64,000 nt of DNA, taken from contig NC_049979.1 of the NCBI RefSeq assembly GCF_000003815.2, forward strand, positions 20,939,934-21,003,933, in the 5' to 3' direction. Every line of letters begins with the position of its first letter. The first letter of the stretch is position 1. A model generated the notes under the pieces. That model was not told the origin of the DNA, ran no database searches, and saw nothing but the letters and a program-made list of their open reading frames with translations. The stretch comes from Branchiostoma floridae. Taxonomy: Eukaryota > Chordata > Leptocardii > Amphioxiformes > Branchiostomatidae. Of this stretch, positions 39,048-64,000 are shown piece by piece. Both the position numbers and the translations under genes were made by a program.

Positions 39048-41018
39048 TGTTAAGTATCTGTCAAACTACGCCCGAGTAGCTGGAGAATAAAATAGTACGA
39101 CCAAAATGGGGGCGTATTTCAGCTACCCTACTGCACAATGGACGTGACTTTGGACTTTTGTTCCAAGGTCAAACTTCTGCGTCGTAGTTGGCGCAGGCGC
39201 AGGGTAAGATGTACAAGTATTCGATACTCAGATCCAACTTCATTTTATTGCTTCGTATTCTAATGTCGCTGACTAAAATAAACAGTTTATTATATTTTTA
39301 TGTACAAAGGCAATGGTGGTGATTTGATTGATATGGACGACATCGTCTGGGAACCTAAAAACGAGGGTGCAAATAAGAAATAAGTTTGTCCAAAAACAAT
39401 TTTCCTTCATTATGAAACCCAGAAAGAGTTTCATGGTCGTACAGATCCTAAATTGGACCCTAAGGAGTCGGCCAAACACAGGCTAGATTCGCTGGACAGC
39501 TTCTGACACTCTACAACCTAATGAAGCTCTTCAGAGTCCCTTTGAGTCCCTACCTTTTGGTACTCACCTACCCAGAAGAGACTGGGTGGACCTAAACTAG
39601 GAGCTAAGAGCAGAGTAGGCAGGACAAGAGACAACCTACTAAAATGGGGACGGGTGAACTCAGCTAAGTGTCGTTGTGGTCATCCTACCCAAACTATGGG
39701 ACACATTACACGGGACTACGTATTGGGCCCAACATCTCCAACCGTGACCTGCTTGAGGCCGTGGTCTGGCTGCAGTACTGGCGCGGAACGATATGATGAT
39801 TATGATGAAATCTTAGTGGTCAGGAAGTGTGAACAAATTACTAAACAGAGTATAGTATACAGATTCTTCATTTTTGTTCTTTCACATTTTCTATGACTTT
39901 GTAATTGACTTCGGCATTCCACGACATTAGTATCCAGTCTCTAATATTCGCAACTCACAGTACATATCTACTCATTTTGTTGCAGCTTTGCACAAGTTAC
40001 AATTTGGTCAAAATCTTGTGTGTGTGTGTGTGGACGTGGATTGGGGTTCAAAAACATCAACATAGCTCAATGTAAAAATACTGTACTAGAATTCGAAAGG
40101 AGAAACAAATGAATGCAGCTGCTTTCAAACGCTTGAGCGCTAATGCTTGATACAGTTATGTACACTGTTACGCTGATTTTGTTTTCGCTCAAAAGCTTGG
40201 TCCAATTGATAAGATTTTAGCTTTTCGTATGATTTTATCTTTTATTGCGGCTTCCGACTTTCTTATGCTAGACGATTTAAACCTTACCGTTACATTAAGT
40301 TTTAATAAGACAAAATGTCAACCGACATTTTTATGAGGTTGTATTAGTTTTTAATTTGTCCTGTATTGTACATGTACATGCTTTAGTGAGTGAAACATAG
40401 AATGAAGTACATTTATTGAGCTTGCAATCGCCATGCGGCTTTGGCAGTGAGGGTGATTCGGTACCAAGGACAGGGACGTTCAGCGTGCATCGAAAACACA
40501 GGAAATAGGATAACGCTTTGCACGACGTTGTGTATGGATAAAACCAACATGTAATATTGACACAAACATTTCAATAACAAATTCGAACTGTAGACATGTT
40601 GTATAAGTGTGTAGAATTGAGCAAAAGCCATTAACTATAGTCAGACTCAGACGTTACCAGAGCACATTCTCAATGGTAAAATGTCTCCTTGATATGTGTC
40701 ACTTTTGGGTTAGTTGTAGAGACTATGTCTTAACAAATTGATGTGTTGTGATACGTATGTCAAGCTAACAAACAAATGTACGCACAAGATTGAAACAAGA
40801 TAGAACAACTTGTATCTGGTCACGAAGTGTGTAAACTAGACGCTCAAACGGTGAGGTACACTTAATCTACGTAAACTTGTGCTATTACAGTATTAGAGGC
40901 GTTATCCACGACAATCACAGCTGCCCGTAAAAAGTCTTGTACTATACAACAATGACAAAAGATATGAGCAAGCAGCCAAGACTTGAAGTATACGAATCAG
41001 TATACTAAGCTGTTTCTG
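39048..41018. other. Intergenic region between the two CYP2-like genes
   Basis: Holds a retroelement fragment (39470-39790). The presumed 3' flank of the second gene (40400-41000) is related to 36390-36970. No other gene is seen. Confidence 0.6.
39470..39790 (+). mobile_element. Non-LTR retrotransposon ORF2 3' fragment
   Basis: Bases ~39560-39760 read as G-A-K-S-R-V-G-R-T-R-D-N-L-L-K-W-G then CRCGHPTQTMGHI. The CxCGxPxQTMxHI motif is typical of the C-terminal end of non-LTR (Jockey/CR1-like) reverse-transcriptase proteins. A stop and broken frames on either side show it is dead. It lies between the two CYP2-like genes. Confidence 0.6.
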
Positions 41019-43666
41019 TCAGCCACGTTTGACTGCCAGGAGTTCGTACGGATGAGGTCGAAGCGTTACTCCGAGGACACCGTCAAAGTTGGGTCGAGCG
41101 CCCTCTGGCAGTGTGAAGGTGAACTGCTGTAGCATGTTGGTGAGGAACAGGAATAGCTCCATCTTGGCCAGTTGTTCACCGAGACAAACTCTACGACCTG
41201 CGAAGTAAGACGAGAAAATGGTTAGTCTTTTTCACAGTCAAACCTGCCTAAGCGGTCATCTCTTCAAGACGGTTACCTGGTCACTTTTTTCTCGGTCCCG
41301 AAAAATTTCCCATAGACGCTAGCATTAAGCGACCTACCCGTCCCCGGGTGACTGTCTTGAGTTGGTTTGACTTTATTTCACAACGTTAATATAAGTCAGT
41401 TTAGGAAAAAAACAATAGAACTTTGTTTCAGTTGTATCTTTACCTGTAGAGAAAGGCATGAATGAATCGTTTGTCTGCAGTTGTCCGTTACCGTCTAGGA
41501 ACCTGCTCGGGTCGAACTTGTCGGGGTTGTCCCAGGAGCCGGGGTCCATGTGAAGGGACCACAGGTTGATGAGCACGTCCGTGCCCGCGGGGATGTCGTA
41601 GCCGAGCAGGGCGGTGTCCGAGGTCGTGCAGTGCGGCACGGACAGAGGCACCACCGTGCGGATGCGCTGCATCTCCATGATGGTGGCTTCCGTGTAGGGC
41701 AGGTTGGGCTTGTCGCTGACGGCTGGAGGACGGTCCCGCCCCACCACTTCATCCAGCTCGGCCTGAACCTTTGTCTGCACGTCGGGATGCGTTACAAGGT
41801 ACAGCAGACCCCAGCGTAAGGTGTTGGCGGTCGTCTCCATCCCTGCCACGAAAAGGTCTCCTAGGAGATGGGGAAGGCTGTGACTCGGCAGAGAGCCTGG
41901 ATCTTCCTCCAGCTTCGCTCGAAACGCTTCGATGACGTCACGTGCCTTCTCCTGGCCATCGCTCTGTTCATGCTGAGCGATGAAGTCCATGAAGTACTTC
42001 AGGCTCTCCTCTGACAGATCCATCCACTCCTGATACTGTCTCCCCACTATCGGGAAGAAGCGAAGTACGGGGTAGATGTTGAAGACATGAGCCGTCAAGA
42101 ATAGTTCGACGCCGCGTTCTGATATCTCCATCAAACGAAGAAACATGGGATCCCCGTATTCGAACCGTTTGCCCAGAGCCATGGAGCACATGATGTTAGA
42201 CACAGCGTTGTGAAGGAGGTGCATGAGATCGAATGGTTGACCGGACATTGTTTCCAGTTCGGTGCAGAAGTGGCGACATTCCATGTCGATCTTTTCTTCC
42301 ATGGTGCCCGTGCCCATGCCGAAGGAACGGAGTGTTGACATGCTGAATCGCCGGAGAACCTTCCACTGGTCACCGTACGGAGACATGACAAGGCCTGGAT
42401 AAAAAGGAGGAAATATTTGCATAATTGAATAAGAAAATAAGACCAGGTAGGGCATACGGGTCAAGGTGGCATAGATTTGGGTTTCGTTAGCTTCTTTCAA
42501 ATTTGATGCTTTATTTGGTTATATCATTTTCCTTGTTGGCTATTCCGATGATTTTCGTTATGTTCTTGTACATCTAATTGTTTGCTTTATTTAGTTGCTT
42601 GATATTATACCATTTACGTTTGGAGGAAGGTCCATGATAAAAATCTAGGTTTTTGGTCTCCAATGCATATTCCTTTTCATTGCTGTTGATAAATCATTTG
42701 TTTCTTTTCAAATGAAAAATAAACACAAACAAAGCCTCCATCAAACTTCCTGAAAATATTTCTCTTTTCTTTTTCTTTTCTTTTCTTAGACTTCTTTCCT
42801 GGTGAATCTGTCGTACGTCTTTTCATTGTCTATGAATAGGTCCTTAACCCACCATTACGGTAACATGCTAATTATGCTATTAATTTATCAGTACTTATCC
42901 TTTTTACTGTAATGTTCTGCTAAGTTTTCTCCTGTCCTTTCATGGTTAGAGCCTAAAATACATGTTACAGCATTATATGAGTAGCTGCCTCCCTCCCCTT
43001 CAATGGTATCTGCCATTTCTATTACTAGTATATAACATTACAAGCAGCGGAAGTCACAGTGCAGTGCCCCCTACGAACACTAGTAGTCTATAGCTACCGT
43101 GATCGAGAGTTACAGCGTTATATTTGATAGTGTAATAAAAACTTGACATGCTTGACATCTTCCATTACTATTATCTTATGTTATAACGTTAAAACAACGT
43201 TATGAAAACATTTAAGAATAAGAAAATTCTTCTAAAATAAATAAATTAACAAACAAACAAACAATGGTCCTTCGTGATCACCATTGTGCTGTTGGTTACG
43301 GCGTAACAGGAAAAGGTCCGGCCTGCTGGAGAAGTGCTCGGCCTTCCTGACCAGGGCCTCCCTGATAGCGTCCTTCCCGCTGACCACCACGGCGTCCTGG
43401 AGACCCATCTTCACGCTGAAGACGTCCCCGTACGTCCCACGCCAGGCCGTCAGCTGGAGGTGGGCGTTCTGGGCAAGACTGGGGAGGTTCCCGAGAACGG
43501 GCCATCCCGGCGGGCCCGGCGGAAGATTCCCTCTCCCTCTCCGTACTGTTGTTTTGAACCACGAAAATAATGTTATAGACGTGAGGAACGCTACAACAGC
43601 GATCAGCACTGCTGTGATGTTGTGGCCTGTCAACACTGCTTGAGCTATAGACACGAGAAACGCCAT
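41019..43666 (-). CDS. CYP2-type (CYP2U1-like) cytochrome P450, gene 2
   Basis: Tandem paralogue of the gene at 36974-39047 with the same three-exon plan: 43666-43282, 42394-41444 and 41197-41019, giving 504 residues. The start at 43666 (MAFLVSIAQAVL...) aligns with the neighbour and puts a hydrophobic anchor first; an in-frame ATG at 43765 would add 33 residues without an obvious role. The hinge PPGPPGWPVLGN, C-helix WKVLRRF, I-helix AGMETTANT, ExxR EMQR and FSTGRRVCLG (Cys450) are present. The 3' third of exon 2, all of intron 2 and most of exon 1 are almost identical to gene 1, while the 5' two-thirds of exon 2 is clearly diverged. This is a mosaic typical of gene conversion. Substrate unknown. 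Confidence 0.9.
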
Positions 43667-45432
43667 GACAGCCGGTTTAATACAAGCCTGACCTACTAAC
43701 GTTACGGCTTGTGTAAGACTACTATGGAGATCGCAGTGCGCAGTGGGATTCAATTTCCACCTCATAGCTGTGCGCGCTTTGACGTCACCACGAGGGCGGC
43801 AGTATTAAACATGAAGTAGTACCGCTGATAGAATTTATATTGAAAAGTTGCTATATTGGAGACAGGAAAGTTGTTTCTATGTACAAGATATGGTTAAACA
43901 GTTTTACATGTTCCAGTATCTATTTCGGCCCTAGCTGTTCGTATTCCACGGTCGATATGGGATCTTCTGGATCTACCAACGAGCTGCCTTTCCACCACTA
44001 TCAATCGTTAAGTGACTAAACCCCAAAATAAACATGCACTCTACCGGGCTATTAAAGAAATCAAGATTTAATACAAATCTGACTCCAGCATGCAAAGTTA
44101 CCTATATATAACTTTACCATATAGATTTTAGGCTAAGATCCACTTTATGTAAAATGTGATTTTTTTTAAAGTGTTCATGCACGCGCACTAGAAATAGAAA
44201 ATGTCAGATAAAAAAAAAAAAACTACCCGTTGACGAGAAAACATCTAAATACTTTACAGTGGAAGATGAACAACATTTGTCAATGCTCACAATACAGTTC
44301 GGAAAGAAGTAAATCATTCATAGAAATCTGCAAAACCCTTTTTTCAAGCTTTTCACATATTAACGACCAACAAAAACAATTTTCTAGTCATCTAACCCAT
44401 TTATCTACGAAAATGTTGGACAATTCATTGTATTCCACTGTTTCACGGAATTATTCAGATGGAAAACGATTTTGAACAGATGTCATGCCCCTTTATTAAT
44501 TTATTTTCATTCTTTGTTAAAAGTATACGATTCTGTATGCTACTGCTTTACTTTGCATATTGCAATTCGCCTCCGGCCATGATTTAAAAAAAAATGGACA
44601 GAGTATCGTACTAATATCCTTTATGACTTCCGTTTGTCTCAATCGCTGTTGCATGCCAAAAACATTATTAGGTACTAGTAGTTGATAAACATAATAAGCA
44701 AATTGAGAAAAGTACACAAATATTCCCCCTCAACCAAACGCATTATATTTCCTTTGGCCCTACTCCACCCCTCTCAAATGGTACAGCCTTAAGAGTTTGT
44801 AGGGCAAAGTTCACCTTAATTCAGCGGACGACAGAAACATTGCAGGTAAGAAGTACATTGCAGGCGTAGTCGTGAAACATCACAGAGAAGGTTGGTGCTA
44901 GACTTTCTTGGGCTGGGTGCTTAAGCGGACAATTGAAATTGTAATGTTGGTTTACGGACATGAGTATTTAGGCCGGACCGACCTACATGTACCGTTATAT
45001 TTGTTTGACCCATAGTCAGAGAGACCCATAGTCGACACCAGAAATGGACGTACCGGCCAGGCCTACTCCAAGTTTTACAACGCCCGGTTCGATGACTAAG
45101 CAAAACACACAATCCATTAGGCATCACATACATTACAAATCATTGTTTTTAGTCCTCTCTTGCTTGGTATGATTGTGATATAACACTAGTGACAGCATCA
45201 GAAAAGAGATTTGGCATGTTATGCCTTGTCTATCCCTTCAAAATAACTGAAACATTGTCGTTACACTAACACAGTGTAAGTACATGTAGTGCAAAAAAAA
45301 GGTAAGTTCGGAAAATGAATTCTTGTTGACCTGTCTGAGATAGATGTAGTATGTTGTGATAATGTCACAGTGATAATGTATAATTGCCCCATACGTACTA
45401 GGTCCCAGTGAGGCACCAGACAGGTACCAAAC
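43667..45432. other. Divergent intergenic/promoter region, CYP2-like gene 2 and RDH-like gene
   Basis: About 1.8 kb separate two head-to-head start codons. It must hold both promoters, but I see no convincing TATA or binding sites. It is AT-rich, with a poly-A tract at 44209-44222 and no gene. Confidence 0.5.
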
Positions 45433-48400
45433 ATGATGTCAGACTACCTGAGTGGTGACTTGGTGGACTTTGTCTCTTCCCATCAACATCTCATTCTCAC
45501 AGGGGTTGCAGCAGGTAAGCAGGGGCGTATGTGAGTGGAGGGGTGGGGGTGCTTAGCAAATACTTAACACTAAGTTCAGGACGACTACCAATATGTTATC
45601 TAGGTAAAATTTGACGACTTCACTATTTACAATTGACTGAAAATAGCTTGTGTGCTCCTTATGAAAAGGAGGCATGCAGGCCCATTTAAAACATTGTCAA
45701 TCAATGAAAAGATTTTGAACACTTAACGTTAATTGTCTTTATTGCTGAATTATTACATACATTCACTGCATTCCCTGGGGTTCTCTTATTGATACGAGAT
45801 CCATTCAAACTATATTGTACCTGCATGTAAGTTATAACGTTACAGTCGTACAATGTATGTCATCGCGCATCAAGAAAAGAGCTATTAACATTGTTTCTAG
45901 CCTACAGGAAAAAAGTAAATGTAGAAGAAAACTGTAAGTTGAATTGCTACTGACATTATGATGTAATACAGGAGTGGCCTTCTATGCCGCCCGGAAGTAC
46001 TTTGGCGGGGGCGGGTGTTACAGCACAGCCAGGCTGGAGGGGAAGACTGCCATCATCACAGGTTCTAATACAGGACTGGGCAAGGAGACGGCACGCGATC
46101 TGGCCAGGAGAGGTATACATTATCACTTATTGTAATCTTAGACCATATATAGATGCAAACACTTAATGCTGTTGATAAATCCACCACCATAGTTGAACAC
46201 ATATTTGACAAATCATAGCATAACATGTACATGTTTTTTAAGCTGGAAGATGTCCTATGGCTAATGACTCAAGTAACTGACCAGGCTGAACTGACATTTA
46301 CTTTCTGAATCTTAAAGAGTAAAAAGATGCAAGGTCACTTAAAGTGTATAAACTTTAAGATATAATGTTACATTGCTCTGCGCCACTATGTGATAGTTGT
46401 GTTAGTCAAGTAGTGACATCACTGTTGTGTGACGTCAGTGTCAAGGGTCACGTGGTCCCTCTCTTCATTCATGGTGTGATTGTACATGCACATGTGTGTG
46501 ATTGTACATGCACATGTGTGTGAATAAAGCTCTCTTTCAATCGAGTTGCATCGTGCCTCTAAGTCTCTCATCAGCACCTTCCTGCATCAATGTTGGTGCT
46601 GCATACTTGAACTGAAATGTAAGTAAGAAACACCAATATGGCAGACAGCCATCATGGACGTTGCACTTTTTGTCACACAATCCATTGTTATGAAAAAGAA
46701 CTTTTTGACTGACTTGAAAAGTGAGATCATCTGTGTGAAATTCTTTTGTGTTTAATAGTGTTGTGAGAAACAACAGACATTATAATTAGCTGTCATGTTG
46801 TAGTGACATTTCCTTGCATTGAAATCAAACTAACAGGTGAGTGCTGCCATTTCAGGTGCCCGGGTGATCCTTGCCTGTAGAGATGTGACCAAAGCTGAGG
46901 CTGCTGCGGAAGACATTCGCAAGACTACCGGAAACGGAAACGTTTTGGTGCGTAAACTGGACCTGGCTTCTCTGGCCTCAGTCAGGGAGTTTGCAGCAGG
47001 AATTAACGACAATGAAACCCGCCTGGACCTTCTCATCAACAATGCAGGTACTGAGCTGACATGTTTCCTCCTTGCAAATGGTGGTACAAAGTTTAATCTA
47101 TTGGTGTGTTTGTTTGTTTGCCATGGTGTGCATCCGCAGTGATGTTGCAGAGTTGTAGGATGTTTGGCAGACATGGTGCAAGATACCTGGAGAATTAAAA
47201 GATTTGGCTCAGGTCCAATGGTGTTCAGACTCATGGCTATGACCAACACAGTGATGTCAGGCTGCCAGAGGTATCCCGTTTAGGTACTGCACCTTTCCTT
47301 GTGTGCAAAGACAGTTAAGTGGCATGGCTTCTTGACCTGTTATCTGTATCATGGGTGATGATTGTTTACTTGTTTCCAATAACAGGTGATGATTTTGTTT
47401 ACTTGTTTCCAATAATAGCTTGTAGCATGAAAAGGAAAGGTGTAATAGGTAACATACAGATGTTTCATACACCTCGCAGGGATCATGATGTGCCCCCAGT
47501 GGAAGACAGAAGACGGTTTTGAGATGCAGTTTGGCACGAACCACCTGGGTCACTTCCTCCTCACCAACCTGCTGCTGGACAAGCTCAAGACGTCCGCCCC
47601 CAGCCGGGTCGTGACTGTGTCTTCGATGGGGCATCAGTTTATCAAGAAGATGCATTTTGATGACCTGAACATGGAAAATAACTACAACTCCATGGATGCA
47701 TACAGTCAGAGCAAGCTGGCCAACATACTCTTCACTAGGGAGTTGGCAACGAGACTAGAAGGTGAACTGAAACTATCATTATATTTTTAAAGATTAATCC
47801 ATACCACTGTTGTTTAAGAAGAAACAAACCTCCTCTGGTGACCTACTGTTATTTGCTTTGTTCCTTTTTTCCATCCAGTGAACCTTGAAATATTTGCAGT
47901 GGTTTTAGTTTTATCTGTTTCCATTGTACTACTTCTGTACCCCAGACTTGTTTCAGACACATGTGCTTAAAAATCTCCTTCCCTATCATTGTAAAATAAA
48001 GTCCTTGCAGAATGATTCACGAAATTTGGTCACAAAGTCTATTATTAAACATTCATCTTGCTACATTAATGCACAATGTGCTTCCTACAGCCAAAAGTAA
48101 TCATCAAACCATGTAAGGCACTTTAGAAAAGTATATAAATAATAATTGACAGATGTGATCATTCTTCAACATGTAGGGACAGGAGTGACCTGTTATTCTG
48201 TCCATCCGGGTGGTGTGCGAACAGAGCTAGGCAGATACATGACCGACACCTACGGACTATGGCTGATCCTGTTACGGCCAATCATCTCACCACTTATGTA
48301 CGTCGTCGGAAAGAGTAGCGTGCAGGGTGCACAGACCTCCCTCCACTGTGCACTTCAGGAGGGCCTGGAGTCCAAGTCTGGTCTGTACTTCAGGTGAGAA

Positions 48401-48981: not shown

Positions 48982-49438
48982 TAACAACTGAGAATGTTAA
49001 AATGACAGAGGACAATTGTACTTTTAGGAATACTGTAATTCTATTTCCAAATTTCAGGTGGGCCAGTCTGATGGTTTATGTTAGGCTGAGACAAATCCTA
49101 AGAGTAGGTCATGGGAAAATGCTAAATGAAACTAAAGGGAGACAGGGACAAAATGTTTCCTCACAGTACCATAACATATGGTACAAGTATATTACATGTA
49201 CCTGTAACATTACATGTAGCTTGTGATGTCTAACATAACAGCCTCTTCTCATTATACAAGTAGTGCACTGGGGGAAAGGGTATCGGATGTAGCCATATCC
49301 GAGCAGGGATATTTGCGTATTTGTAACAAATGCTAGCGAATGCAAACGGATTCGAGTTGGATCCCTAAAATATCCGAAATTTGGATTTTTGGGATCCGGA
49401 ATGAAAAGACTCAAAAATATCCCAAAATGGGATTTTCC

Positions 49439-49850
49439 ACGGATGCGAAGTCGTTTTTTTAGGGATTTCTTTGAATACATGGAATGATCGGATCGCAAAG
49501 AATCCCCAAACGGTCTTTCCCTCGGATGCGAAGTCGTTTTTCAAAGGATTTTTTCAAATACCTGGAATGAACGGGTCCCAAAACGGCTTTGCCGCGGATG
49601 CGAAGTCGTTTTTATAGGCTTTTCCTCGTATATTTGTCATGGTCGGATCCTGAAGAATCCGAAATTTGCCGTTGATGCGAAGTCGTTTTTATAGGATTTT
49701 CCTCGTATATTTGGCATGGTCGGATCCTAAGAAATCCCAAGGCGGCATTTGCCGCGGATGCGAAGTCGTTTATTTGGGATTTCTTCGTATGATCAGATCA
49801 TAAAGAATCTAAAACGGGATTTTCTGCAGATACAAAGTCACTTTAATGAA
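49439..49850. repeat. Degenerate ~80-bp tandem repeat
   Basis: The block ggatgcgaagtcgttt recurs at 49441, 49523, 49596, ~49674 and 49756, with a decayed copy near 49829 (spacings 82, 73, 78, 82). Between copies runs a TTTCCTCGTATATTTG...GGTCGGATCC-type sequence. Confidence 0.85.
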
Positions 49851-51539
49851 TTTTCCGCACATTTGACAAATCACAATATCACGTGTGCCCAATTACTTTC
49901 TTATAAAAGGCTAACACGATTCGAAATGGAAAAGAATGCACAGAATAATCTTATTCTAAACCAGTCCTGCGAAGAACTAAACGACGTAATGTCATCGAGG
50001 CCGAATCCTGTCTGCCACATGATACGTATTCAGATACAATATTGCAACAAGAATGGGTTATACCAGGTATGTACAGAGAGTCCCTGTTATCTAATTATGT
50101 TAAGGGAAAGTTGAATCCTTTAACCGCCAATATCACATGACTTCTTATACTTCCAAATAGAATATAGGATCAAACGTGAATACAATTTGAGTTTTATGTA
50201 AAGCTGACATGGGAGTCTGTGGCTAATCTTGCTTCTACGAATATCTGTTTCTATTACAAATCATAGTCTTCGCGATGTCCAACTCTAAGGAATTTCCACA
50301 TCCGGCTACAGGATACAGATAGTGAATCCAGCTTGTAAATTACAACTAACATGACTTATAGTATCAGTATGTACAGCTTCTCGCAACAGCACAAAGTCTC
50401 CTTTCTACTAGTGACAGTGCTTCGCTTCTTTTCAGGCTAGTTACGCCCTGATCCCTCCCAGCTCAATTCCTTCTGTGCCCTTCCTGTAGTCCAGTGTTCT
50501 CCCAGCTGTTGACACGGCCAGAGAATGTCGACCCGCCTTCTGAAAAAGAGAAAGAATAATCCCATCAAATTTTGAGATAGGCTAAAGCATCCATGTTTGA
50601 TGGATGCGTCCGTCAAAGTAATTAGGATGTATATGAAAAGAAATGGTGATTGGCTTGTTATACAACAGGAACAAATGCATTTGATTGTGGTATCGCCATT
50701 ATCACCGTTACATTCCGCATTATCATACCAAAAAAGTCCCCCGGGAGGGCGCGGCAGAAACAGTCTAGCGTTGCATAATTAGTGACAAGGTGTGATCTGC
50801 TTCCCCGGCCGGACTTTGCATTGTGTACGAGACGTCGCATGTAAACAAACACGTAAACACCGTTGGAACAGAATGTTCCTATGCGAATAAATGCCAGGCT
50901 TGAGACAAACATATGCGTATACAAGTACTGTTTTGATGATGATTCAAATTTTTCCCAAATAAGTCAACAGTTACTCAGCAAGTATCATGCTTGTGACTTG
51001 TGTTTTGTAAGGCTCCGTTATGTCGTTTTCTGATAAGTTTCTGTTCAGCCCAAGCATACCAAAAGCGCTACTAACTACTAGCCAACAAGGAATGTAGTCA
51101 CAAAGACAAATTCAAAGCGGGTATTGTTTGGAAACAATCATTGTATAAAACATACCTCGCCGTGAGATCCGCAGGACAGTGATGTAAAATAGCCCCAGGA
51201 CGCCGAACTACAAAACAGGGCTGGCTGTTTCAGTCCCTCGATCGCCGTCCCGTCCGTCGACTGCCACTTGAGTTTGGTCACCGCCTCAACATCACCCTAC
51301 TACAGAAGTTCACACACGTGTGTACAAATCCATATCCCGAGTTCAACGTTTCAAAACTCAAAGTTTGAGGTACAAAAAGATTGCGGTCCTCACGGACAAC
51401 GCTGACTATCTCCGCTTTATTTTCAAACTGACTGATGTGCAGTCTGATTGGTCAGAGAGACAACGATTGGATTACCCACAATACACCGCCCCAATGTACG
51501 GATGCAAAAAAATACAGAGTCGCATATTTAAGATATCCC

Positions 51540-51620
51540 AAGATTACCAACAATGCACTGCTCCAATGGAATCCCCTCCACTGGAGCAATCCACTGGAGC
51601 AGTGCATTGTTGGTAATCTT
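51540..51620. repeat. Perfect 26-bp inverted repeat with 29-bp loop
   Basis: The arms 51540-51565 and 51595-51620 are exact reverse complements (aagattaccaacaatgcact...). The loop holds further ctggagcaat/ccactggagc repeats. The hairpin is long enough for a foldback element or a cruciform. Confidence 0.9.
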
Positions 51621-52732
51621 GCCACGAATGCAGAAAAAAACCATTTCGCATCCTTACGAATCCGAGTATCTTGGTATCTAGCGTAACGTGGATTGTCTCA
51701 CTTGTATTGACGTTACAAACTGTGGTGTCCGAGGTACAAAAAGGGGGAAAGATATGACCAATCTAAAAATGATATTTTGCGCAAAAACAAGAGTGCTAGC
51801 CACGCATACGTAAAAAGTAAGAATCCATACGGATGCTGTATTGGCATCCGCCAAGTACGTAAGCATACGAATTCCGTGTTTGCATCGATACGACAGCGAG
51901 TGACGAATACCAACAAATGCGTTTCGGATGTGTATGGGATCCGTGATTTTTGGTAATCTTAGGAATCCGTTAGCATCCGTTAGGATGTTGCAAATTCGTA
52001 TACGTCTGCATCTGAAGAGTTTTTGCTGATAAACAAGAATCCTGACCTCGTATGCTTTTGTTTACATTAAAAGTAAGTATCAATACGAATGCACTGTTTG
52101 AATCCGCTAGTGACTTATGGATACCAACGAATGCGTTACGTATGTGTATAGGGTCCGTAATTTAGGAAGTATCCATACGGATGTAGTGTTAGCATCCGTC
52201 GTGAATTACGTAAGTATACGGGTTTCTTGTTTGTATCCACCGCGGGTTACGGATACCTACGAATGCGTTGCGGATGCAAGTGGGATCCGTCATTTTTTGG
52301 GATCCGTGATTGATTTTGGGATACGTCAGCATTTGTCAGCATCCGTCAGCATCCGTCAGGTGTTGCAAATTGGAGTCCGTCAGCATACGTCTACATATTA
52401 GGTCTTTTCGTCTAGTGGTGGTGTTTCATTTAGGAAAAACTTCTCATTTGCAGTGAACTTCTCTACCATTTATGCAAGAGACAACCATAATCCTTGGGTA
52501 ACTGACATCTATCTCACTTCAACCACCTCTCGATAAGACAGCCAGAGCAGCATAGTTCTCCCGTAGAACTTTACTGTGCCTGTCAGTGTCTCTATGTAAT
52601 CAATGCAGTTCCTATAGGGAGTTATGCTGCTTCCGTGTCGTTGACAATGGTGATTGCAATGTCATCTAACCATTGTACAATATACCAGCTGTGAGCCTTC
52701 CTTGCAGTTTTTTAGTTACCATTTAGCAGATA

Positions 52733-53541
52733 CTGGGAGAAAATAACAGATTAAGTGTGTTGATTAAAAGTGTATGACAGATGATAAGTATGAAAAGATT
52801 TAGATTGTGATTATCTTAAAGAAGTCATCTTTTTCTCAATATAATAATGGATTATTTATCGAGAATGTGAGCAAAAGTTTGCAAATGGGCAAATGTGAGA
52901 AAAATTGTGTTACATGATTTTAATACTATTTGGCAGATACAGTGAAATATTGCATTATCACATGTATCAGTGATGCAAAGTATTTGGACATGATTTCTTA
53001 TACTGTGTAAAAATGCAACCACAAATAGATTTACATATGTAAAATATTGCACTTGGTCATTTCATTATTTTTCTTTCAATGAATTAAAAAAGGAAAACTC
53101 AAACTGCCAATAAACAAGTTGATTATTAGTAAGTATCCACAAATGCAGGATATATTTAATTTAGAGCATCCTTGGTCTAACGTGTGATGAATTCTTTGAT
53201 ACTGTTTGTTGACTACTTTGCGAGCCCCTGGTCCCGCCCTACTGTGATCGCAGTTGGAGAAAATAACAGATGAAGTGTGCTGATTAAAAGTGTATGACAG
53301 ATGATAAGTAATCTATGAAAAGGTTTAGATTGTGATTATCTTTAAGAAGTCTGATATTTTTCTCAATATAATAATGGACTATTTATCGGGACTGTGACCA
53401 TAAGTTGGAAAAATTGTGTTACCTGATTTTAATATTAATTGGCAGATACAATGAAATGTTGCAATATCACATGTATCAGTGATACAAAGTATCTGGACAT
53501 GATTTCTTACACTGTGTAAAAATGCAACCACAAATAGATTC
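52733..53541. repeat. ~300-bp direct duplication
   Basis: 52733-53035 and ~53255-53541 are diverged direct copies, sharing gattaaaagtgtatgacag, tcaatataataatgga and ctgtgtaaaaatgcaacc blocks in the same order. The second copy has internal deletions. The ~220 bp between them are unrelated. Confidence 0.8.
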
Positions 53542-53633
53542 AGGTTCAACCGTTCCTTTGGATGCATGGTTGGATCGGTCAATTTAACCAAACCCTTCTA
53601 ATAGCCCTGCTATACGCCTGATTACGTAATTGA

Positions 53634-53723
53634 GTCAGCCTGGTCGACCTGTCTAAGGTGCTGTGTGCAGATAGCAATTTGCTGCTGCAGCCGTGGATCG
53701 TGGGTTCGAACCCCACTTGTTAC
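53634..53723 (+). repeat. tRNA-like remnant (Leu/Ser type) or SINE head
   Basis: It has a perfect T-arm (gtggg-ttcgaac-cccac, B box GGTTCGAACCC at 53703-53713) and an A-box-like TGGTCGACCTGTCTAAGG stretch as in Leu/Ser tRNAs with a long variable arm. The acceptor stem (gtcagcc versus ttgttac) and the anticodon loop do not pair properly. A working tRNA is therefore unlikely; a tRNA pseudogene or a SINE 5' end fits better. Confidence 0.45.
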
Positions 53724-54074
53724 AATTTTTTCTCTTTGTTAGAAAAATGTCATGTAATGTTTTTTTAATAGAAGACAGACCAATTCAGTAATTCGACGTT
53801 TAAAAACTCTTTTTCATGTGATTTTGTTTAACATCCAGGTTTTTTCTAAAATACGCACCGGCCAGCTTTTTTCAGAAGCTTTCTTGTTTAATTAAACTGT
53901 AGTAGAAACCAAGCCGGGGGCACCATCTTTCTCCAATGATTACTTTTTTTGTGTCTTTTCTAAAGACCAAGACGCCTCAACAAAGCTAAGCAAAAGGTGT
54001 GTGGAAAGTTTAAAGTTGAGGTATTGAGTTTAGGACAAAAAATGGAGAATGAATCATCAAGTGTAAGTAGGTCT

Positions 54075-55807
54075 TTTATTGATACCATATCAGGTACTAT
54101 TTCCTGTTACAGTGGCTGTCAAATAAAACTCTTGACAACAGTCAAACTTTACACAAATACGTAGCCACGTACCGTACAAGGTTATTCATGTCAGACACCA
54201 TTATTACTCCAGCTGAAGTTTTCCTCCATAGCAAAATACAAAAACACAGTCAAGTTTTTTTGCCTGACATTGAGTATAAAACAAACTGTTGTTGCATTGT
54301 TAAGATTACTGTTATGATATCTCTACTATATCTTAGGTACAACACAATGGCTTTAGTAGTAAATTTCACTGTGAGAAACAACATAGAATTACGGTAACAA
54401 ACGTACTGGGGAAAACTCATATCTACGTTAAGTTTGGGACACGGTAGTACCAATAAACTCTATCTTCACAGAAACATTGGGCTGACAATGTTAAATACAT
54501 AAAGCTTCCCCTGCTTTTCACGATATTTACAGAGTTCAACGTTGGCATGGGAATATTCAGCTGACAGATGCTGCAGTACAGAGAGCAGCCCTCAAAATTA
54601 CATTGTTGAATGATCGTCTGACTGTGTGTCGTGCTTAGCTACAAGAAGTGCTTAATACATTCGGAGCACCAGTGCACAGTCTGATCTTCTAACACATGAT
54701 CTAACCACTCAGCATGGCAGTGAAAGAGCAAAAATTAAAAATAACAAAAAAGGCAAAAAAATTACGCAACACATGATTCCAGCTACTATGGTTGGTTCAC
54801 AACTTGGTACACAAAACTTGGAAGCTTTTTTCCAAAATAATAACTTGTCTTTCACTGCCGGCATGAAAATATACACAAACAAATATCTACTTGTCATGGA
54901 CAGGCCAAAGGGTCAGCAAAAAATATATATATATATTTATATAACTCTCACAGAGAAAACTCATACTTCATTACAGTATTAGCCACAGTACATCTTTAGT
55001 TACAATTTAATTGACTTCAGTAGGGTTACTGTTTTTTCTCTTTTCTTCTTCTTCATTAACTTAAACAACAAGTTTGGACTACAGCAATATGTATAAAACA
55101 CTGCAAAGCCAAATCCACGGTCTATATCAATCACTGCATAGACAGTGTTACCCTCATATTGGAGAGGGGAACACCTCTCTAGTAGCCTCCCAGCAATGCC
55201 TCTGGTCCCTCAATATATACACACACTTTGACAACAGTAGACATCAATGCTGGGGGGAGGGGGGCGGTTGGATTTCAAACTTCCTGATGCACTTCATGAA
55301 ATTTGCACAGTAGTTTGTGTGTTTTATTATTACCCAGGGCTTTCCTCTGTACAAAGATATTGCTGAGCCAAAAATTAACCACTGCTAAATATTTGCACAA
55401 AACAAAGATTCTGTATGTGAATAATGAAGGTGGTCGAAGGGACCACAAATGAGAAGTTCACTCCACAATCTCTCCTCTGTTCTTAAATTTACAAAACTGC
55501 TGGTTACATGTATATCAGACCCTACCAGCACTTTCAATACTTGTACTAAGTTAGGGGGAGTTATGTTAAATTAACAGTAAAAACCAAAGAAGATTTCATA
55601 TACATCCAACAGCAGTTTCTTGAATTGGTACATTGGGGGTAAGGGGGACTGAATTTGTTTTCCTTTTGTCATGAAGTACTGCCAACTTTGCTGATTTTCA
55701 GTGTTCTTCTAATTACACAAGAGTAGAAATGTTATCACTGAAGATTCTATCCATCCCATCTCTTCTCTGCCCTGGCGAGTCGTTCTTTAGCGTGTCAGGT
55801 TGACTCT
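54075..55807 (-). other. Probable Robo 3' UTR
   Basis: AT-rich, without a gene, directly downstream of the inferred Robo stop. A minus-strand AATAAA lies at 54080-54075 and could end the transcript. The extent is inferred from position only. Confidence 0.35.
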
Positions 55808-58800
55808 TCAACAAGCCTGTAGAAAGGAAAGAAAAATATCTTTAATACTGTAATATGATGCAACTTGTTCTTTGATCTATCTTTCACAACTAACAAAATC
55901 ATCTAGTACTTCAGATTTACCAAGTCTTATATTTCCTTCATTATACTGCAGCTATACATCGCATTTAGTTTCTATATACAAATGTAAATGTAATTGTGAA
56001 CTTACATGCTTGTTCTCGAAAGCTATAGGGTTAGCCTGTACATAACCCCCATCACTGCTCCCATCCCTGCCGGAGCTGCCGTTGCGTAAGCTCCCCTGGT
56101 TGCTCGGCGTACGCTCCCTCCGTCTCCCCGTGGAGCCTCTGGATGACGTGCTGTTCGGGCTCATCGGTGGCGTGTTGGTGCCCGCGGTGGTCGTTCCACG
56201 ACCGTACGACGACAACTCATCTGCAAAGAGTACCAGAAATGTTTACACCTGCGTACTTCCGCCACATGTGCCATGTTACACAAAGGAAGTTATGAATGCT
56301 AACACCTGCATAAAGCTAAACTGCATGAAGCCGTGCTTGCCTACAGAGAAAGCAACACCACGGCACTGTCACACACAGCCACTACCAAACTAAAGCAAAT
56401 CAAAGCAGCAAAACGACCCTGTTAGTGCGCTGGCTCGCCTGATAGCTATGCCCTACGTCTGCAGCTACAACTTTTTGCATTCTCATGCCTGGTTAGGACT
56501 ACACAGGACCACTACACATGCCCAACACACCTCTATAGACGTTTCTCGGAGAGAGCTGCCCTCCCCACTCGTGGTGGTGGGGACTGGTATAGTAGAGCTC
56601 TGATTGGAGGAAAGGAAAGTTGGGGTGATCAGATCCAATTCACCTGCCACCTTAATACAACTTTCGTGCTGAAGCAAATGCACACTATGCATGCTTGAAA
56701 AAGTGCTTGGTGTCATTAACAAGGGAAACTGACTCACAAGAGCATTTCCATATTAGGAACCAAACTTTATGTTGTACCATTCCTGCAAGTGCCTACAATG
56801 TGTACATTTTGCGGTAGAATTGTGAGGTCACGCCAAACAAAATGTTGTTACTTTAGAGGTTTAGCTGTTCATATTTCCGCAAAGACAACAGTTTTGTCAC
56901 TAGCAGGTATGGTTAGTGATAGTTGAAACAGAATTGTGAAGTACCTTCTGGCTCTTGCCGCTGCCTCCTGTTGGGTGCGGGCTTGCGGCTGACGTCCGGT
57001 CGTGTTTTAGGCCGGGAAGACTGCTCAGACTCTGACGAGGGCGCAATATCTCCACCTACATGTGTGTCAAAACATATGGTCAGTCTACAGTCTTTCTTAG
57101 AGGAAATGCTGTCTCCCCCCTCAATCCCAGTCAGTACATTGTAGCTTGTCTAGCCTGCTTCATTTGTCATCTCTGCGTTTCATGAAAAATGTAAACTGTG
57201 TCTAAATGATGAGCTCCTATACTACTTGAGGGTTTGTGATGTTTTTCAAATTCACGTTTGAAACAATTCTGCAGTGCATGAGTAATACATGGGAAATATG
57301 CCGTGAATTTGCGGTGGAAAGGCCATCATGAAAAACCCTGAATGTTTCAAGATTTACAGTACTGAGAAGCCCTCTGACCTATGTTTAGTGAGGGCCCGTC
57401 AGAGTCAGATCTGGACTGGTCCTGTCTCCTCCTGTGACTAGGCGGGTGTGGACGGGGCTTCTGGGCCAGGGCTGCGCTCGCATTGCTATCTGTACTGAAG
57501 GGGCTGCCCGACCTCTTGTGTCGAAGGGCTCCCGGGAACTGCTTTTTACCTGGCACAAGATATCAGACTCGATTATTGCATGGACAGCCACACTATAGTC
57601 AATGTAAATTTGAATCAAAGATACATCACACAAGTAAGTACAAGATCAAAGCAACAGTTCACTAGCCTGGTATGAGAACTGGTGTGATCAGAAGTGTCAG
57701 GCCCAGTATGGCAGTAAGCAGTGGACATCCAAATATTTGTAACTACCCAGGTGGACTCAATGCTGTATATAAACCTAATTGTACATGGTTCTCTTGCATT
57801 TTCAATCAATCATGTCTAAAGCTATGAACATCACTAACTACACGACTACTTTTACAATGAATGGAGCTAACAGCTGATACCACACTTGTAGCCAGAAATT
57901 AAACATATCTGATATTCCAAATTGCTTCTGTTTTTCCAAATTTGAAGTGACCAGTGTTAACTTGTCTTTAAAAGATGTATGACTAACCTGCATTAGGATC
58001 GGAGACAACAGAACCCTGCACTGTAAGCCCTGCACTCTCTGCAGCCGCCGCTACTGCACTGGCAAAGTCTGCGTCCGTGAAGAAGGACCCGTCCGACGAC
58101 TCTGCAGCGCTGGACCTGTTGCTGGCTGACGTCACGCTGTCGTTGTCATCAGTAGCCGAGGCCCATCCAGCAATCATCGAGTCTATATAGTACATGGACA
58201 ACAAGAAGTGTTAACAGCAATCAGTGTAAGTTTTAACGTGTATATTTCTACTTATAGATCAGACCAGTGTGTGATCACGATTTATCGTGGCATCTGACCC
58301 AATGGGAAACTGGCTGAAAACTAGGATTCATGCCCATGTTTTCCGATGCAATTTTTGCTTTGCAAGCAGGACTGATATTGCAAGCTTACATGTGATGACA
58401 GTGCAGACAGTTGTCTTCTTTTTTGCACTGGCCAGCATTGCATCTGCCTACATGCCAAGACGTTCTGGCCATGCACAACAGAGCAGACCTATCTCTCAAG
58501 CAGTGCAATTCTCAGGCACGGCGGTCTACCTGAGTATCTTCTGCCATTCTCTCGCGGAGGCTTCAGACTTTTGGGCTTACTCCTGCGATTTCTTTCCATG
58601 TTTTCCCACGAGTCCAAAAGTTTTTGGAATTGTAAGTAATAGAGGAGAAAGTCATTATCGGGACCATCAAGGGCATCAAATTCAGATGGTTCCAGACTGT
58701 CAATAGCTTCAACTTCTGATGTATCAAAACCATCAAAGTCGGTGTCCAATGCATCTACATCTGCTTGGTCAAGGAGATCTAGGGAACACAGTGGACAGGG

Positions 58801-61800
58801 GAGGGAAGACAGGCCAAACAAAAGTTAGACATGGGAGGAACAGAAACAAAGAACTCAAGAGCAGAACAAAGGAGTTTAAACTTAAAGGTCTCAAACAAAG
58901 GAGTACAGAGAGCAAGCAAAACAAGTCGATACTTCAAGTCACAAATTTTGAGGTGGCCATTAAACCAAATGTACTTAATTTTTTCACTATATTTGTTCCT
59001 TTTAGAATGTTGTAATTGCAACCATTCAAGGCTGTAAGGAGAATGACATGACAAATGCTTTTGATGGCCAGATCAAGGTTTGTGTCTTTTCCTACAACCA
59101 AAAAAAGATGGGAGTCTTTCACTGTAAAAGATAGACAACTAAAAATACTTTCATATAGTTTAATTTGTAAGTACAGAAAACAGAAAGCAGCATAATGACA
59201 GAATGGGGATAGGCTGACAGATGAGATTAATGCGTGAGTTTTTGAAAATACAACAGTTGCCAGTATGACTGGCAGTAGCAGTTGATTTTGCATGTGTGTG
59301 TGTGAGTGATTGCATTTAGTACTGTTAGCTTGCCACTTCACAAACACCTAGGTCAGAAAGCGAATGATACCACACCTCTATTACCTGTGACGCTGCTTTC
59401 CAGATCTCCCATGCTGGAAGCAGGCGTCTGTTCCCCCAGGTGGCGTTCCCTGTCGTAGTCACGGTTCTCGAAGTCCTCGTCCCTCACGCTGGTGTCCGCG
59501 TCCGACGGAGCGTCCAGGTAGCCGTACCCCGGCAGCTCGATTCTCAGCCCCGGCCCCTGCCCCGTATCCTCCAGGTGCGCCGGCAGGCACGGTAACGTCA
59601 CGTCGGTGTTGGGGGAATCTGGGGTGGGTCTGTGATCGGGGGAGGGAGGTACATTTACAGTTCGTTTCGGAGGGGTGGGGCCACGCTCCTCAGGGGAAGA
59701 CAAGTCTGAGTTGTTGTGTCGATATGTGCGAGCTGGTGGGGTGGGTCCACGGTCACTGCTGGACTTGTCACTCAGATGGCTGGGAGAGGTGGTGCAGGGA
59801 GGTCTCTTTGATGACCTAAAGGGCACATTGTTTCCATGGTATATGAATTTGGGGCAAGCTTTTTTTCCACTCCCACAGATGCGTGGAGTGTGGATATGCC
59901 AACCGTGGCCAGTTGGGAAAATAGTGTTGGTATTCTTGGTAATATTGGGCTAGACACGTCTGTCGAGTAATTTTCACAACCTTAAAAATACCAAAGGGGA
60001 AAAGAAAGCGTACAGGAAGGAAAGCACTTTCTCTTTTGGCCCAAGGGAGGGTAGAAATGAAACTCAATTGATGTAACAAAAACAGGGACTTGTCAGGTCA
60101 CCCCACTTTACACAGAAAGTGAATAATAATGAAAAACAAAACAAAACCCAGTAATATCTTAACATACTATTTGGCGGGATAATATACATGTACATGTGCC
60201 AGTACAATGTTTCTTACACTACAAAAGGTCCTACAGTATGATTAGAGGTAGACCCTGCTCACCTGTCACTCCTGTGTGAGGAGGAGTAGGGAGATCTGGG
60301 CGGGGTACCGGGAGGGGAGTCCACCTCGCTGGGTGGTGGATGTTCCGGGGGAGGGGGCAGCAGGTCTGCCCAGTTCAGCGGGGGCCCCGCCTGCTTGGCT
60401 GCCGAGGGCGGCGGCTTGTTCTGTGCTCTCCTCCGCCGACGGGAGGAGTCATCTATGCGTGAAAGCAAAAAAGATGAGATAACAGCGAAATTTAAAGATG
60501 CACAATTTAATGTGTGAAATAGACTCATGCGCACTGTTCATCATGCTTCGACTTTTAGGACAAAGATGGGCAAGAATGTAGTTCCCACCTGTGGCTGACC
60601 CATCACTGTAAGGGCTTCTGGGCCTGTTGTCATACATGGGGTTACTCAGAGAGGTGGACATCTGACTGCCTTCCGAGTTCTCCTGGGGATACATGTCTGA
60701 GGAAACAAACAAAAAAGAAAACTTTGTCAAAATGTTACAGTTAGAAGTGAAGTAGCATATGAGCATGATCATGTGCAAAACAACAAGTAGCTTTGCTGAA
60801 TGTGTAATTCTAATCATACAATGGATAGAAAATCTAAAGATGTTACACCCTGGGTTTATACTAAGGGGTAGCAAAGGTGTAAAGTAAGAAGGTTTGACAA
60901 TCATGTATGATGCTGGACACTACTAGTACTGGTAACTATGAGAAAGGGCTATAAGGACAACTCACCATTGTTGACTTTGTGGTCAGGTGTGTACGCATCC
61001 GGCGTCCTCCTCCCGTTCTTCCTCTTCCCCCGCGTGAAGGTCGGCATCCACTTCTCGCTCCCGTTCTCAGACACCGACTTCTCCAGGTTCAGGTTCTCGT
61101 TCAGGTTGGTGTCGACCACGGAGGTGGAGGCGTAGGGGGCCGGGGAGCCCAGGTGGTTCATGTTCTGCTGCTTGGTCAGGAAGGTCTTGAGATGGGGCTG
61201 GTTTCCAACCTCGGCATATTCCGGGAGGCTGAGGGAGAAAAAATGCAAATTTTATAGTTTTGCACTATAGAAGCAAGATACTCCCTTTGGTTCCAGATAC
61301 AGATGCACTACTTTGATGAAGGATGCAGTATGGATCTGTAAATCTGGTCCAGTCATGAACAGTGCTGAAGGGGGATATTGATAAGTCAGCCACATTCGGT
61401 ATTGCATTCTTCACACTGCAGCAGCGACACCTAGCTGAAGTGCAAAGTAATGCAGTTCAGCATCATCCTGATGTAGGCGACAGACCAAAACTGAAAACAC
61501 TTCTGTAATCTAAGAACTTTGTTATCCACAGCTTGTTGTCTGTTTTCGGGCAAACTTTTCAGACCATAACACTACTATTGGCAACACTTTTTTAAGTATC
61601 AGTTATGGGACTGGTCTCAAACCATTCAAACAATATTGGTAACATATCCATTGAAAGTAGTCCATCACCAGTAATGCCATCCCAGTAATACCCCTCTCCC
61701 GCTAGAGGGTTAATTAGGCTGCAATGTTGGACCAATTCTGGATGTAATGGTCTGCATAGATCGATGCATATCATCTGGAAACATTGAAGTATGTGCAATT

Positions 61801-63666
61801 TGTGCCTTGGCCTTTAATGGTCGATCAATATCAATGATAAATCTTTGCCAAGACCTATTCACAGGTCTCCATTCAAACTTTCCAAATCCTAACAAGAACA
61901 AAAAAAAAACCTCAATAGAATCATCACTATGTACAAAAATGGATGGCCACAGGTTCAACTTCCAATGTTGCAAGTGCAGCATATAGCATGACTGTAACCA
62001 AATCCTTTTATTGCTTTTGAGTGTAACCAAAAAGAATCAGCTACCACATGCAGTAAAAATGATGGAATGCGGTATGCAGTGGACAGCCCCTAGGTAGACA
62101 GAACAAGGTGACCCGACTGCCCAAAAGGGTTACTTACCATGAATCATTCTGACGTTATTGACTGGCCTGAAAGCTGCAATTTTTGGCAGGATCAATGTTT
62201 AATCACCGGGCGGCCTGGGTGCCATTGCTCACCCATCTGACCCCACTGTTCCCCCCAATGGTTATTGATCAATGCGACCTGTCCTAGGGACAACTACACT
62301 AGTACTGGGCTTTGCAGCAAAGCCTGGCACAGTGCTGAACAAGTGTCTTAACATGAACAATGAGATTCAGCAGCCACAAATAAGTGTACCAGAGGATTTT
62401 GTGTTGAGAGCAGGTCTTTTTTAGGTTGTCGTTCAGGTCCAATTTTGAGGGATATGACAATCAATATTATGTCAATGGTTTGCAATTATTCTCAGAATGG
62501 GGTTGACAATCTATCAAACTTGCATGGAAAGGATTTTCCAAAATTTTGCCCATGGCTATGGACTAGCCTTTCAAACTGTTCTAGATTTAAAATGCTACAC
62601 TCCAGTGTTAAACACAGCAAGCTGCAAGTGCTTTTCCAGCCTAGAATTTAAACATTACCGCTGCACTGCGTCCTAACTGAGGTTAACATACTATGATATT
62701 TGTCAAACGTATTAAATGTAATGTTTAATTCATTGGCAAAAATATTTCCAAGTATTGGTCACCCTACTTACATTATGTAAGTACAAGCATAAATGAAAAA
62801 TGTGCAGCATTTCAAGGTATTTCTCACAGCTGAATTAGTCATTAAGACAAGCAAGACAATAAAAATCACATTAAAGTACAACAGTATGCCAAACAAATAT
62901 TGAAACCTATGCCTGTGTTGGAAACTTCAAACATGTCTTGCTCACAAACTCTATCGTAACAAGTTGTATTGAGCTACAAGAGGCAAATGCCACTGTGCTA
63001 ATGATTTTTCAAACAATTGGGTAACAAATTAGCAACACAGAGACTTAACTACTCCAGTACAAAATTGCATCAGAGTATGACATGGGAGCCCAATAAACTA
63101 AGACGATTTGTAATTCCTCATAATTAAGACTGCATGTGGAAACAGTGGAGCTGATTGCCATGTGAGACTTCCATGTGTATTCTTTACCCTGTTAAAGTTC
63201 TTCTCTTAAGTTATAGTCAACCATACATGTACTTCCTCAGTGATCCATGCAATTATCATCACTATCACCATGGGAAATTAGTAGTCAAATGTCACACTTT
63301 GCAAACCAACTCAAGTAAAACAAAACACTGGTAATTGTCTGGGCAGTCTGCCAAAGTGCGACATTGTTAATTTTCAGGCATCAGTTGCTTGTTGCTACTG
63401 AGGTGAAAATATGCAGTGCAATTTGCAACCTCATAGTAGACAGAAGAAAAAGAGCAATCAGAAAAGAAAGGGGCCATACAAAAACGTTTGAAGCACCATG
63501 AAAAACTTGTAAAACTCTTTTCAAAGAACATTTGTTATTTCTTACCTCTCGACATCCGGAGGCATGTTGGCATTGTGGACCATGTAAGGTGGCACGCCCG
63601 TCTCAACCTCAGGCTGCATCTTGGCTTTCTCCTTCCCAAGGTTGTCGTACACCATGTCGTTAATGT
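55808..63666 (-). CDS. robo: Roundabout (Robo) receptor, cytoplasmic tail (3' part of gene)
   Basis: Robo is the Slit receptor for axon and cell guidance; its tail recruits Ena, Abl and srGAP-type partners. Minus-strand exons seen: 63666-63546, 61228-60966, 60696-60589, 60452-60263, 59815-59385, 58778-58530 (cassette?), 58182-57988, 57549-57379, 57055-56945, 56599-56531 (optional?), 56220-56006 and 55816-55808. All phases fit. [14 protein letters not shown] corresponds to CC0, [10 protein letters not shown] to CC1 (PYATTQLI in ROBO1), [15 protein letters not shown] to CC2 (the Ena-binding motif), then two RGPTPP repeats. [36 protein letters not shown] and [13 protein letters not shown] match ROBO1 almost word for word. 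The ectodomain and membrane helix lie beyond 64000. The last join gives the end FENKHAC; reading on past the donor at 56005 would give a different short tail, so the terminus is uncertain. Confidence 0.88.
56531..56599 (-). other. Candidate 69-nt optional Robo exon
   Basis: A pyrimidine-rich acceptor ends at 56600. The 69 bases are open in phase (reading [18 protein letters not shown]), and a GT donor follows. The exon is phase 1-1, and the neighbouring exons (56945 and 56220) join in frame with or without it. No vertebrate counterpart is recognised. Confidence 0.35.
58530..58778 (-). other. Candidate 249-nt acidic cassette exon in Robo
   Basis: The acceptor has a long pyrimidine tract (minus strand, ending ttccctag at 58779) and the GTAGAC donor lies at 58529. 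The 83 codons are open in phase 1-1. They encode an Asp/Glu-rich stretch ([20 protein letters not shown] and on), then a basic end ([20 protein letters not shown]). It splits the motif that reads SSVTGSMINGW in vertebrate ROBO1; skipping the exon restores VTDSMIAGW. Confidence 0.6.
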
Positions 63667-64000
63667 CTGGAAAAGGAAGACAAGGGAATCACTGTGATGA
63701 ACAAAAGTTTTTATTAGTTTTTCTATGTTGTGACTTTTTGCATTATTGAAAGGCATCCAGACCAAAAAATTCCCGGACTGCAACATAAATAGATATTACC
63801 ACCAATGGAACGGTCTCACAAAGAAGGACATTACCCAGTATACATGAACATGGCAGATCTCTCTGGCCCAGAAAAGGTGGTAACCTAGTAATGCACTAAA
63901 AGGCAGGTTCAAGTGCACATATACAATGTTGGTTGCCCAGCTTATCAGTGGGTCTTTTACTAATCCCTTACTTCTGGTAATGCTTACTTCCTTGGTGGTC

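Follow-up and report, generated by a model that had tools for sequence, protein, structure and literature searches.

A candidate acidic cassette exon in the cytoplasmic tail of a probable Robo gene of Branchiostoma floridae

Alternative exons in the cytoplasmic tails of Robo receptors are already known, as exemplified by exon 21 of mouse Robo2, an alternatively used segment of 42 amino acids located between the CC1 and CC2 motifs (PMC6687390, as far as its available passages go). In chick embryos, inclusion of this exon raised repulsion in receptors lacking microexon 6b but had no further effect in those containing it. The same passages state that Robo splicing controls midline crossing in mammals, and place Robo2 'exon 24b' among the primer sets that amplify multiple isoforms (PMC6687390). 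In the fly, the Robo motif YLQY (residues 1090-1093), a putative AP-2 motif, is required for Slit-dependent endocytic trafficking and repulsion, and receptors from which YLQY or YQAGL (both putative AP-2 motifs) had been deleted caused no ectopic repulsion and failed to rescue robo mutants (PMC4559387, available passages). Regarding splicing control, RBFOX proteins are described as binding (U)GCAUG and as promoting exon inclusion when bound in the downstream intron (PMC11701043), while recruitment of U1 by RBFOX is described in one case (PMC10514471), in both instances according to the accessible parts of these articles. In the open-access literature searched, no regulated exon was found described for the tail of an invertebrate Robo.

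The window here analysed (the whole stretch of 64,000 nucleotides) contains, between 63666 and 56006 on the reverse strand, the tail exons of a probable Robo gene whose 5' part extends beyond the window; all exon and motif coordinates of this gene are given on that strand. A CC1-like PYAST is encoded in E2 and a CC2-like stretch of ten residues in E4, PYAST and LPPPP-type stretches being characteristic of the CC1 and CC2 motifs, respectively. E3 (60589..60696; 108 nt, phase 1-1) encodes 36 amino acids between these two exons. Further downstream lie E5 (59385..59815), ending in an 18-residue run; E6 (57988..58182; 195 nt, phase 1-1), which reads DSMIAGW and later FFTDADFA; E7 (57379..57549; 171 nt, phase 1-1), which reads a 22-residue run; E8 (56945..57055; 111 nt, phase 1-1); and an uncertain exon, E9 (56531..56599; 69 nt, phase 1-1), with exon-like ends and 23 residues. 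Comparison of E1, E2, E5 and E6 with Pfam gave no family, and no Robo chain was found in the PDB with the joined E5-E6-E7 stretch; the sole chain matched by that stretch, CFAP21 (E 0.16), was taken as a chance match. A full-text literature search for FFTDADF returned no matches.

The candidate cassette exon lies at 58530..58778, between E5 and E6, and comprises 249 nt of phase 1-1 coding for 83 residues when the split first codon is included. Its acceptor reads gttccctag/ATC and its donor CAG/gtagac. E5 stops one base into a codon that the candidate exon completes with its first two bases, the candidate exon itself ending after one base; thus, it could be kept or skipped without change of frame. 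The used frame is open, while the remaining two contain 2 and 11 stops. After the split Asp codon, translation begins with an 11-residue run and ends in NGRRYS, the first 44 residues having a net charge of -17 and the last 25 of +6. When E5 and E6 are joined directly, a 15-residue junction is read, which in a longer view of 24 residues continues towards FFTDADFA; vertebrate ROBO1, quoted for comparison in the original prediction, reads this motif without interruption. These readings reproduce the original prediction exactly as to coordinates, length, strand, splice dinucleotides, phases and flanking exons (59815-59385 and 58182-57988), and bear out its claims of an open and frame-neutral exon with acceptor and donor both usable by score, of an acidic block followed by a basic segment, and of a position between CC2 and the FFTDADFA block, the CC2-like LPPPP stretch being in E4, two exons upstream. 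In line with its author knowing of no described Robo isoform with this insert, none was found in the open-access literature as represented by titles, abstract starts and some passages. As a side observation, the frame at 58489-58824 (reverse strand) continues for 13 more codons when the donor is left unused and then meets a stop, so that a retained intron would cut the tail short, upstream of the FFTDADFA block.

The insert is very probably a genuine coding exon. Its period-3 information, 0.053, surpasses the maximum of 0.051 recorded in 804 overlapping control windows of 246 nt, taken on both strands from 49000-63950 and free of Robo exons, although 34 of the 135 further open frames in the window (82 codons or longer, real genes included) reach this value when each is taken where it scores best. 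Values for the nine other Robo exons, which differ in length and were considered whole, lie between 0.015 and 0.247, indicating that a high score is not required of a real exon. With splice matrices built from those nine exons, whose own scores were obtained by leaving each one out, the acceptor of the candidate exon scores 8.58, the second highest of ten exons (others -6.4 to 9.5), and its donor 4.84, the second lowest (others 3.35 to 8.84). Within 15 kb, 12 of 1449 non-exonic AG and 91 of 1573 non-exonic GT sites score at least as high. When both ends are demanded of a single open phase-1-1 stretch of 100-500 nt, none is found outside exons on either strand of 49000-63950. Asp and Glu account for 20 of 82 residues, and no tile of that length in the 135 comparison frames holds more than 16.

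The opposite reading, that this is a chance open stretch of intron with splice-like ends or a decayed exon, draws on several of its properties. Third-position G+C is 0.38, below all nine other Robo exons (0.58-0.87), which may alternatively reflect a younger exon or one under other pressures; the insert matches no Pfam family and no PDB sequence up to E 10; and the intron just upstream holds a longer open frame, of 137 codons, so that openness by itself is weak evidence. Considering, on the contrary, that (i) the period-3 value tops all 804 controls, (ii) no comparable pseudo-exon is present in 15 kb, and (iii) organised repeats occur in the sole open frame, with 2 and 11 stops in the others, we regard a non-exonic origin as highly improbable. 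An origin as a copy of nearby DNA was also considered and rejected: the only repeat among those listed for 52000-64000 that touches the exon is a 34-nt, 74% match to E2, which is regarded as fortuitous since the two are read in different frames. No Rfam match was obtained over 57300-60000.

Whether the exon is alternatively used is a separate matter, for which its equal phases had been adduced as a sign. This argument does not stand, as phase 1-1 is shared by E3, E6, E7, E8 and the uncertain E9. The claim of alternative use itself is probably correct on other grounds, namely a pair of GCATG pentamers downstream, the weak donor and the pyrimidine tract. The 60 nt immediately preceding the exon (58779..58838) are 77% C/T, the highest value among 11 exons examined. 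Beyond the donor, a TGCATG of the Rbfox type lies at 58470..58475, its GCATG at offset 55 from the donor (counting from 0), followed by GCATG copies at 58451..58455 (offset 74) and 58329..58333 (offset 196). At least two GCATG copies occur within the first 100 nt after three of the 11 exons (E3, the candidate exon and E9), a property unique to this sequence among the 1024 pentamers, while two or more are present in 47 of the 6390 overlapping windows of 100 nt taken from the strand. The corresponding binomial probability, 6e-5, comes from an exploratory test made after the sites had been seen and includes the uncertain E9, without which the count is 2 of 10 and P 0.0023. The enrichment also depends on the window chosen, P being 0.025 for 300 nt and 0.027 for 60 nt (1 of 11 exons).

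In terms of density, six GCATG copies are present in the 1100 nt formed by the first 100 nt of the flanks, versus four in 4538 nt of intron farther out, and the reverse complement is seen once in all 11 of these 100-nt flanks taken together. Only the candidate exon, among the 11, has TGCATG at most 100 nt from its donor. The pair following E3 (60526-60546, reverse strand; offsets 42 and 58) is also at most 100 nt upstream of E4, and that following E9 has offsets 9 and 42. For NOVA-type YCAY motifs, the flanks of the candidate exon do not stand out from those of the other exons, and no UGC of the SRRM4 type is present in the last 60 nt before its acceptor.

The arrangement resembles that of Rbfox-activated cassette exons (PMC11701043 and PMC10514471, in their available parts) in having a (T)GCATG pair a short distance past the donor. 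Recruitment of U1 by RBFOX would suit the weak donor of the candidate exon. On this basis, alternative splicing of the exon appears likely, and its control by an Rbfox-type protein is a plausible, if tentative, proposal. A constitutive exon, perhaps lineage-specific, whose acidic block would always be present, without any switch, to serve for docking or as a charged spacer, would agree with the acceptor being the second strongest of ten exons and with a phase symmetry that is common to the tail exons and thus uninformative on skipping. Since the weak donor, the downstream GCATG pair and the 77% pyrimidine tract are instead those of an exon resembling a regulated one, constitutive use is considered rather unlikely.

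Overall, a genuine Robo coding exon used as a regulated cassette is the reading to which we lean slightly, and the exon is most likely, as judged from these features, a regulated cassette adding a sorting or docking module. On this reading, a strong acceptor, owed to the long pyrimidine tract, would be paired with a weak donor. In nerve or muscle, U1 would make use of this donor with the aid of an Rbfox-type protein on the GCAUG pair lying 55-78 nt downstream, and where such a protein is absent the exon would be skipped. Less surely, the included block would behave as an acidic insert for docking, largely disordered except for one helix, and its DNDFLL and YLQF would add an AP-2-type sorting signal to the tail. 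Also less surely, this signal might raise Slit-dependent endocytosis and repulsive output, somewhat in parallel with the effect of the tail insert e21 in Robo2.

The protein content of the insert was then explored for features consistent with such a module. Residues 6-39 include four imperfect acidic/hydrophobic repeats of a 7-residue unit (58663..58764; 28 residues in all). None of 1000 residue shuffles produced a four-copy set of 7-mers as good, and one of 1000 did so for four 6-mers over the whole insert; three copies were equalled in 16 of 1000 shuffles of the 44-residue segment and in 8 of 1000 of the whole insert, and two copies are unremarkable (196 or 136 of 1000), the unit length and copy number having been picked after looking at the insert. 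Immediately downstream, at residues 41-51 (58627..58659), an 11-residue stretch carries an acidic dileucine form, [DE]xxxL[LI], that runs into a YxxPhi form, YLQF. The insert holds the only [DE]xxxL[LI] (DNDFLL) and the only YLQ of the assembled tail. YxxPhi forms arise in 2725 of 5000 insert shuffles and dileucine forms in 1483 of 5000, whereas YLQ-Phi is rarer (78 of 20000), as is a dileucine running into YxxPhi (69 of 20000).

The basic end (residues 59-83; 58531..58605), 25 residues with a net charge of +6, contains RRYS, the assembled tail's only [RK][RK]x[ST], a match seen in 556 of 5000 insert shuffles. No WIRS motif is found in the insert, the tail having two matches with or without it, and the gamma-ear (GAE) pattern gave no match. 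A single-sequence structure model of 82 insert residues gave a mean pLDDT of 64.8, too low for a fold search, with one fairly confident helix predicted at residues 41-66 (pLDDT 75 for 41-50 and 88 for 51-60) and lower values elsewhere. YLQF sits inside this predicted helix, whereas tyrosine signals bind AP-2 in an extended form, a point against a sorting role.

The YLQF of the insert and the fly YLQY (PMC4559387, available passages) are of the same YxxPhi type and differ in their last residue. They also differ in tail position, and the signal in the insert would be optional. The fly motif lies before CC2. A sorting or docking role appears to be the likeliest single function of the insert, its odds being nevertheless kept low because chance readily produces YxxPhi and dileucine forms; a sorting signal as its main function is put forward as a doubtful candidate.

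The acidic composition admits a different function, in which the insert would be an acidic activation domain and, upon cleavage of Robo and entry of its intracellular domain into the nucleus, the included isoform alone would activate genes. Composition rules for acidic activation domains (PMC10550315, available part) agree with it: with the insert, 32 of 605 tiles of 39 residues pass equation 1 and 32 of 606 pass equation 3, while for the skipped tail the counts are 0 of 522 and 0 of 523, respectively. In addition, the intracellular part of Frazzled/DCC, a fly guidance receptor, contains an activation domain (PMC12570126), and cleavage and nuclear entry of ROBO1 are reported according to PMC12308364, as their accessible passages indicate. 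These rules, however, were built for transcription factors (PMC10550315, same part) and consider composition only, 2081 of 5000 insert shuffles passing equation 1, and neither the insert nor the assembled tail contains a nuclear signal of the strict form K[KR]x[KR]. The likeness to the P3 activation domain of Frazzled/DCC (PMC12570126, as available) is that of a guidance-receptor tail, the activity of the insert being a prediction from composition only. An activation domain is, in consequence, held to be improbable. Still more improbable is the combined version, in which an Rbfox-type switch would decide between a plain guidance receptor and one that, after cleavage, might act as a transcriptional regulator with an activation-domain-like block.

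Regarding the sorting or docking cassette that we prefer, the nearest described counterpart is Robo2 exon 21 (PMC6687390, available passages), similarly a frame-neutral insert in a Robo tail, which is alternative and alters repulsion. It differs, however, in contributing 42 amino acids between CC1 and CC2, whereas the exon here presented would contribute 83 after the CC2-like exon. The position of exon 21 is instead matched by E3, with 36 amino acids, the likeness being one of position only (PMC6687390, same passages). E3, with its own GCATG pair, is a second candidate for regulated use, and E9 is possibly a further optional exon of the tail, if it is an exon at all.

As for Robo2 exon 24b, its primers read, in one of three frames each, PRPLRAL and SQRQRP. 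These residues would flank the DSSVTG junction in ROBO2, the common form of which presumably lacks the FFTDADFA exon. On this alignment, the isoform-testing primers appear to straddle the same SSVTG junction, and exon 24b would probably be the counterpart of E6, which encodes FFTDADFA, rather than of the acidic insert. If this alignment is right, the junction at which the insert is placed is a known alternative-splicing site in mammals, probably of the E6 counterpart. The acceptor of E6 in the present gene is weak (leave-one-out score -1.83).

If the tail insert of this invertebrate Robo gene is regulated, it would suggest, together with the GCATG pairs after the candidate exon and E3, that splicing of Robo tails by neural factors predates the vertebrate Robo duplications. 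The candidate exon would also make it simple to test if splicing a sorting signal into Robo sets the strength of repulsion.

Elsewhere in the window, two adjacent copies of a unit of ~510-530 nt, 86-96% alike over four aligned pieces, occupy 52736-53540. Likely exons of a short-chain dehydrogenase lie on the forward strand at 46834-48397, the piece 47449-47790 that was scanned matching adh_short (E 2e-6). Two adjacent cytochrome P450 genes are present on the reverse strand at 37328-39065 and 41373-43804, their frames 37331-38470 and 41376-42518 matching Pfam PF00067 with E 3e-84 and 7e-88, respectively. By eye, the 3' halves of this pair are nearly identical, perhaps owing to a recent tandem duplication or to gene conversion.
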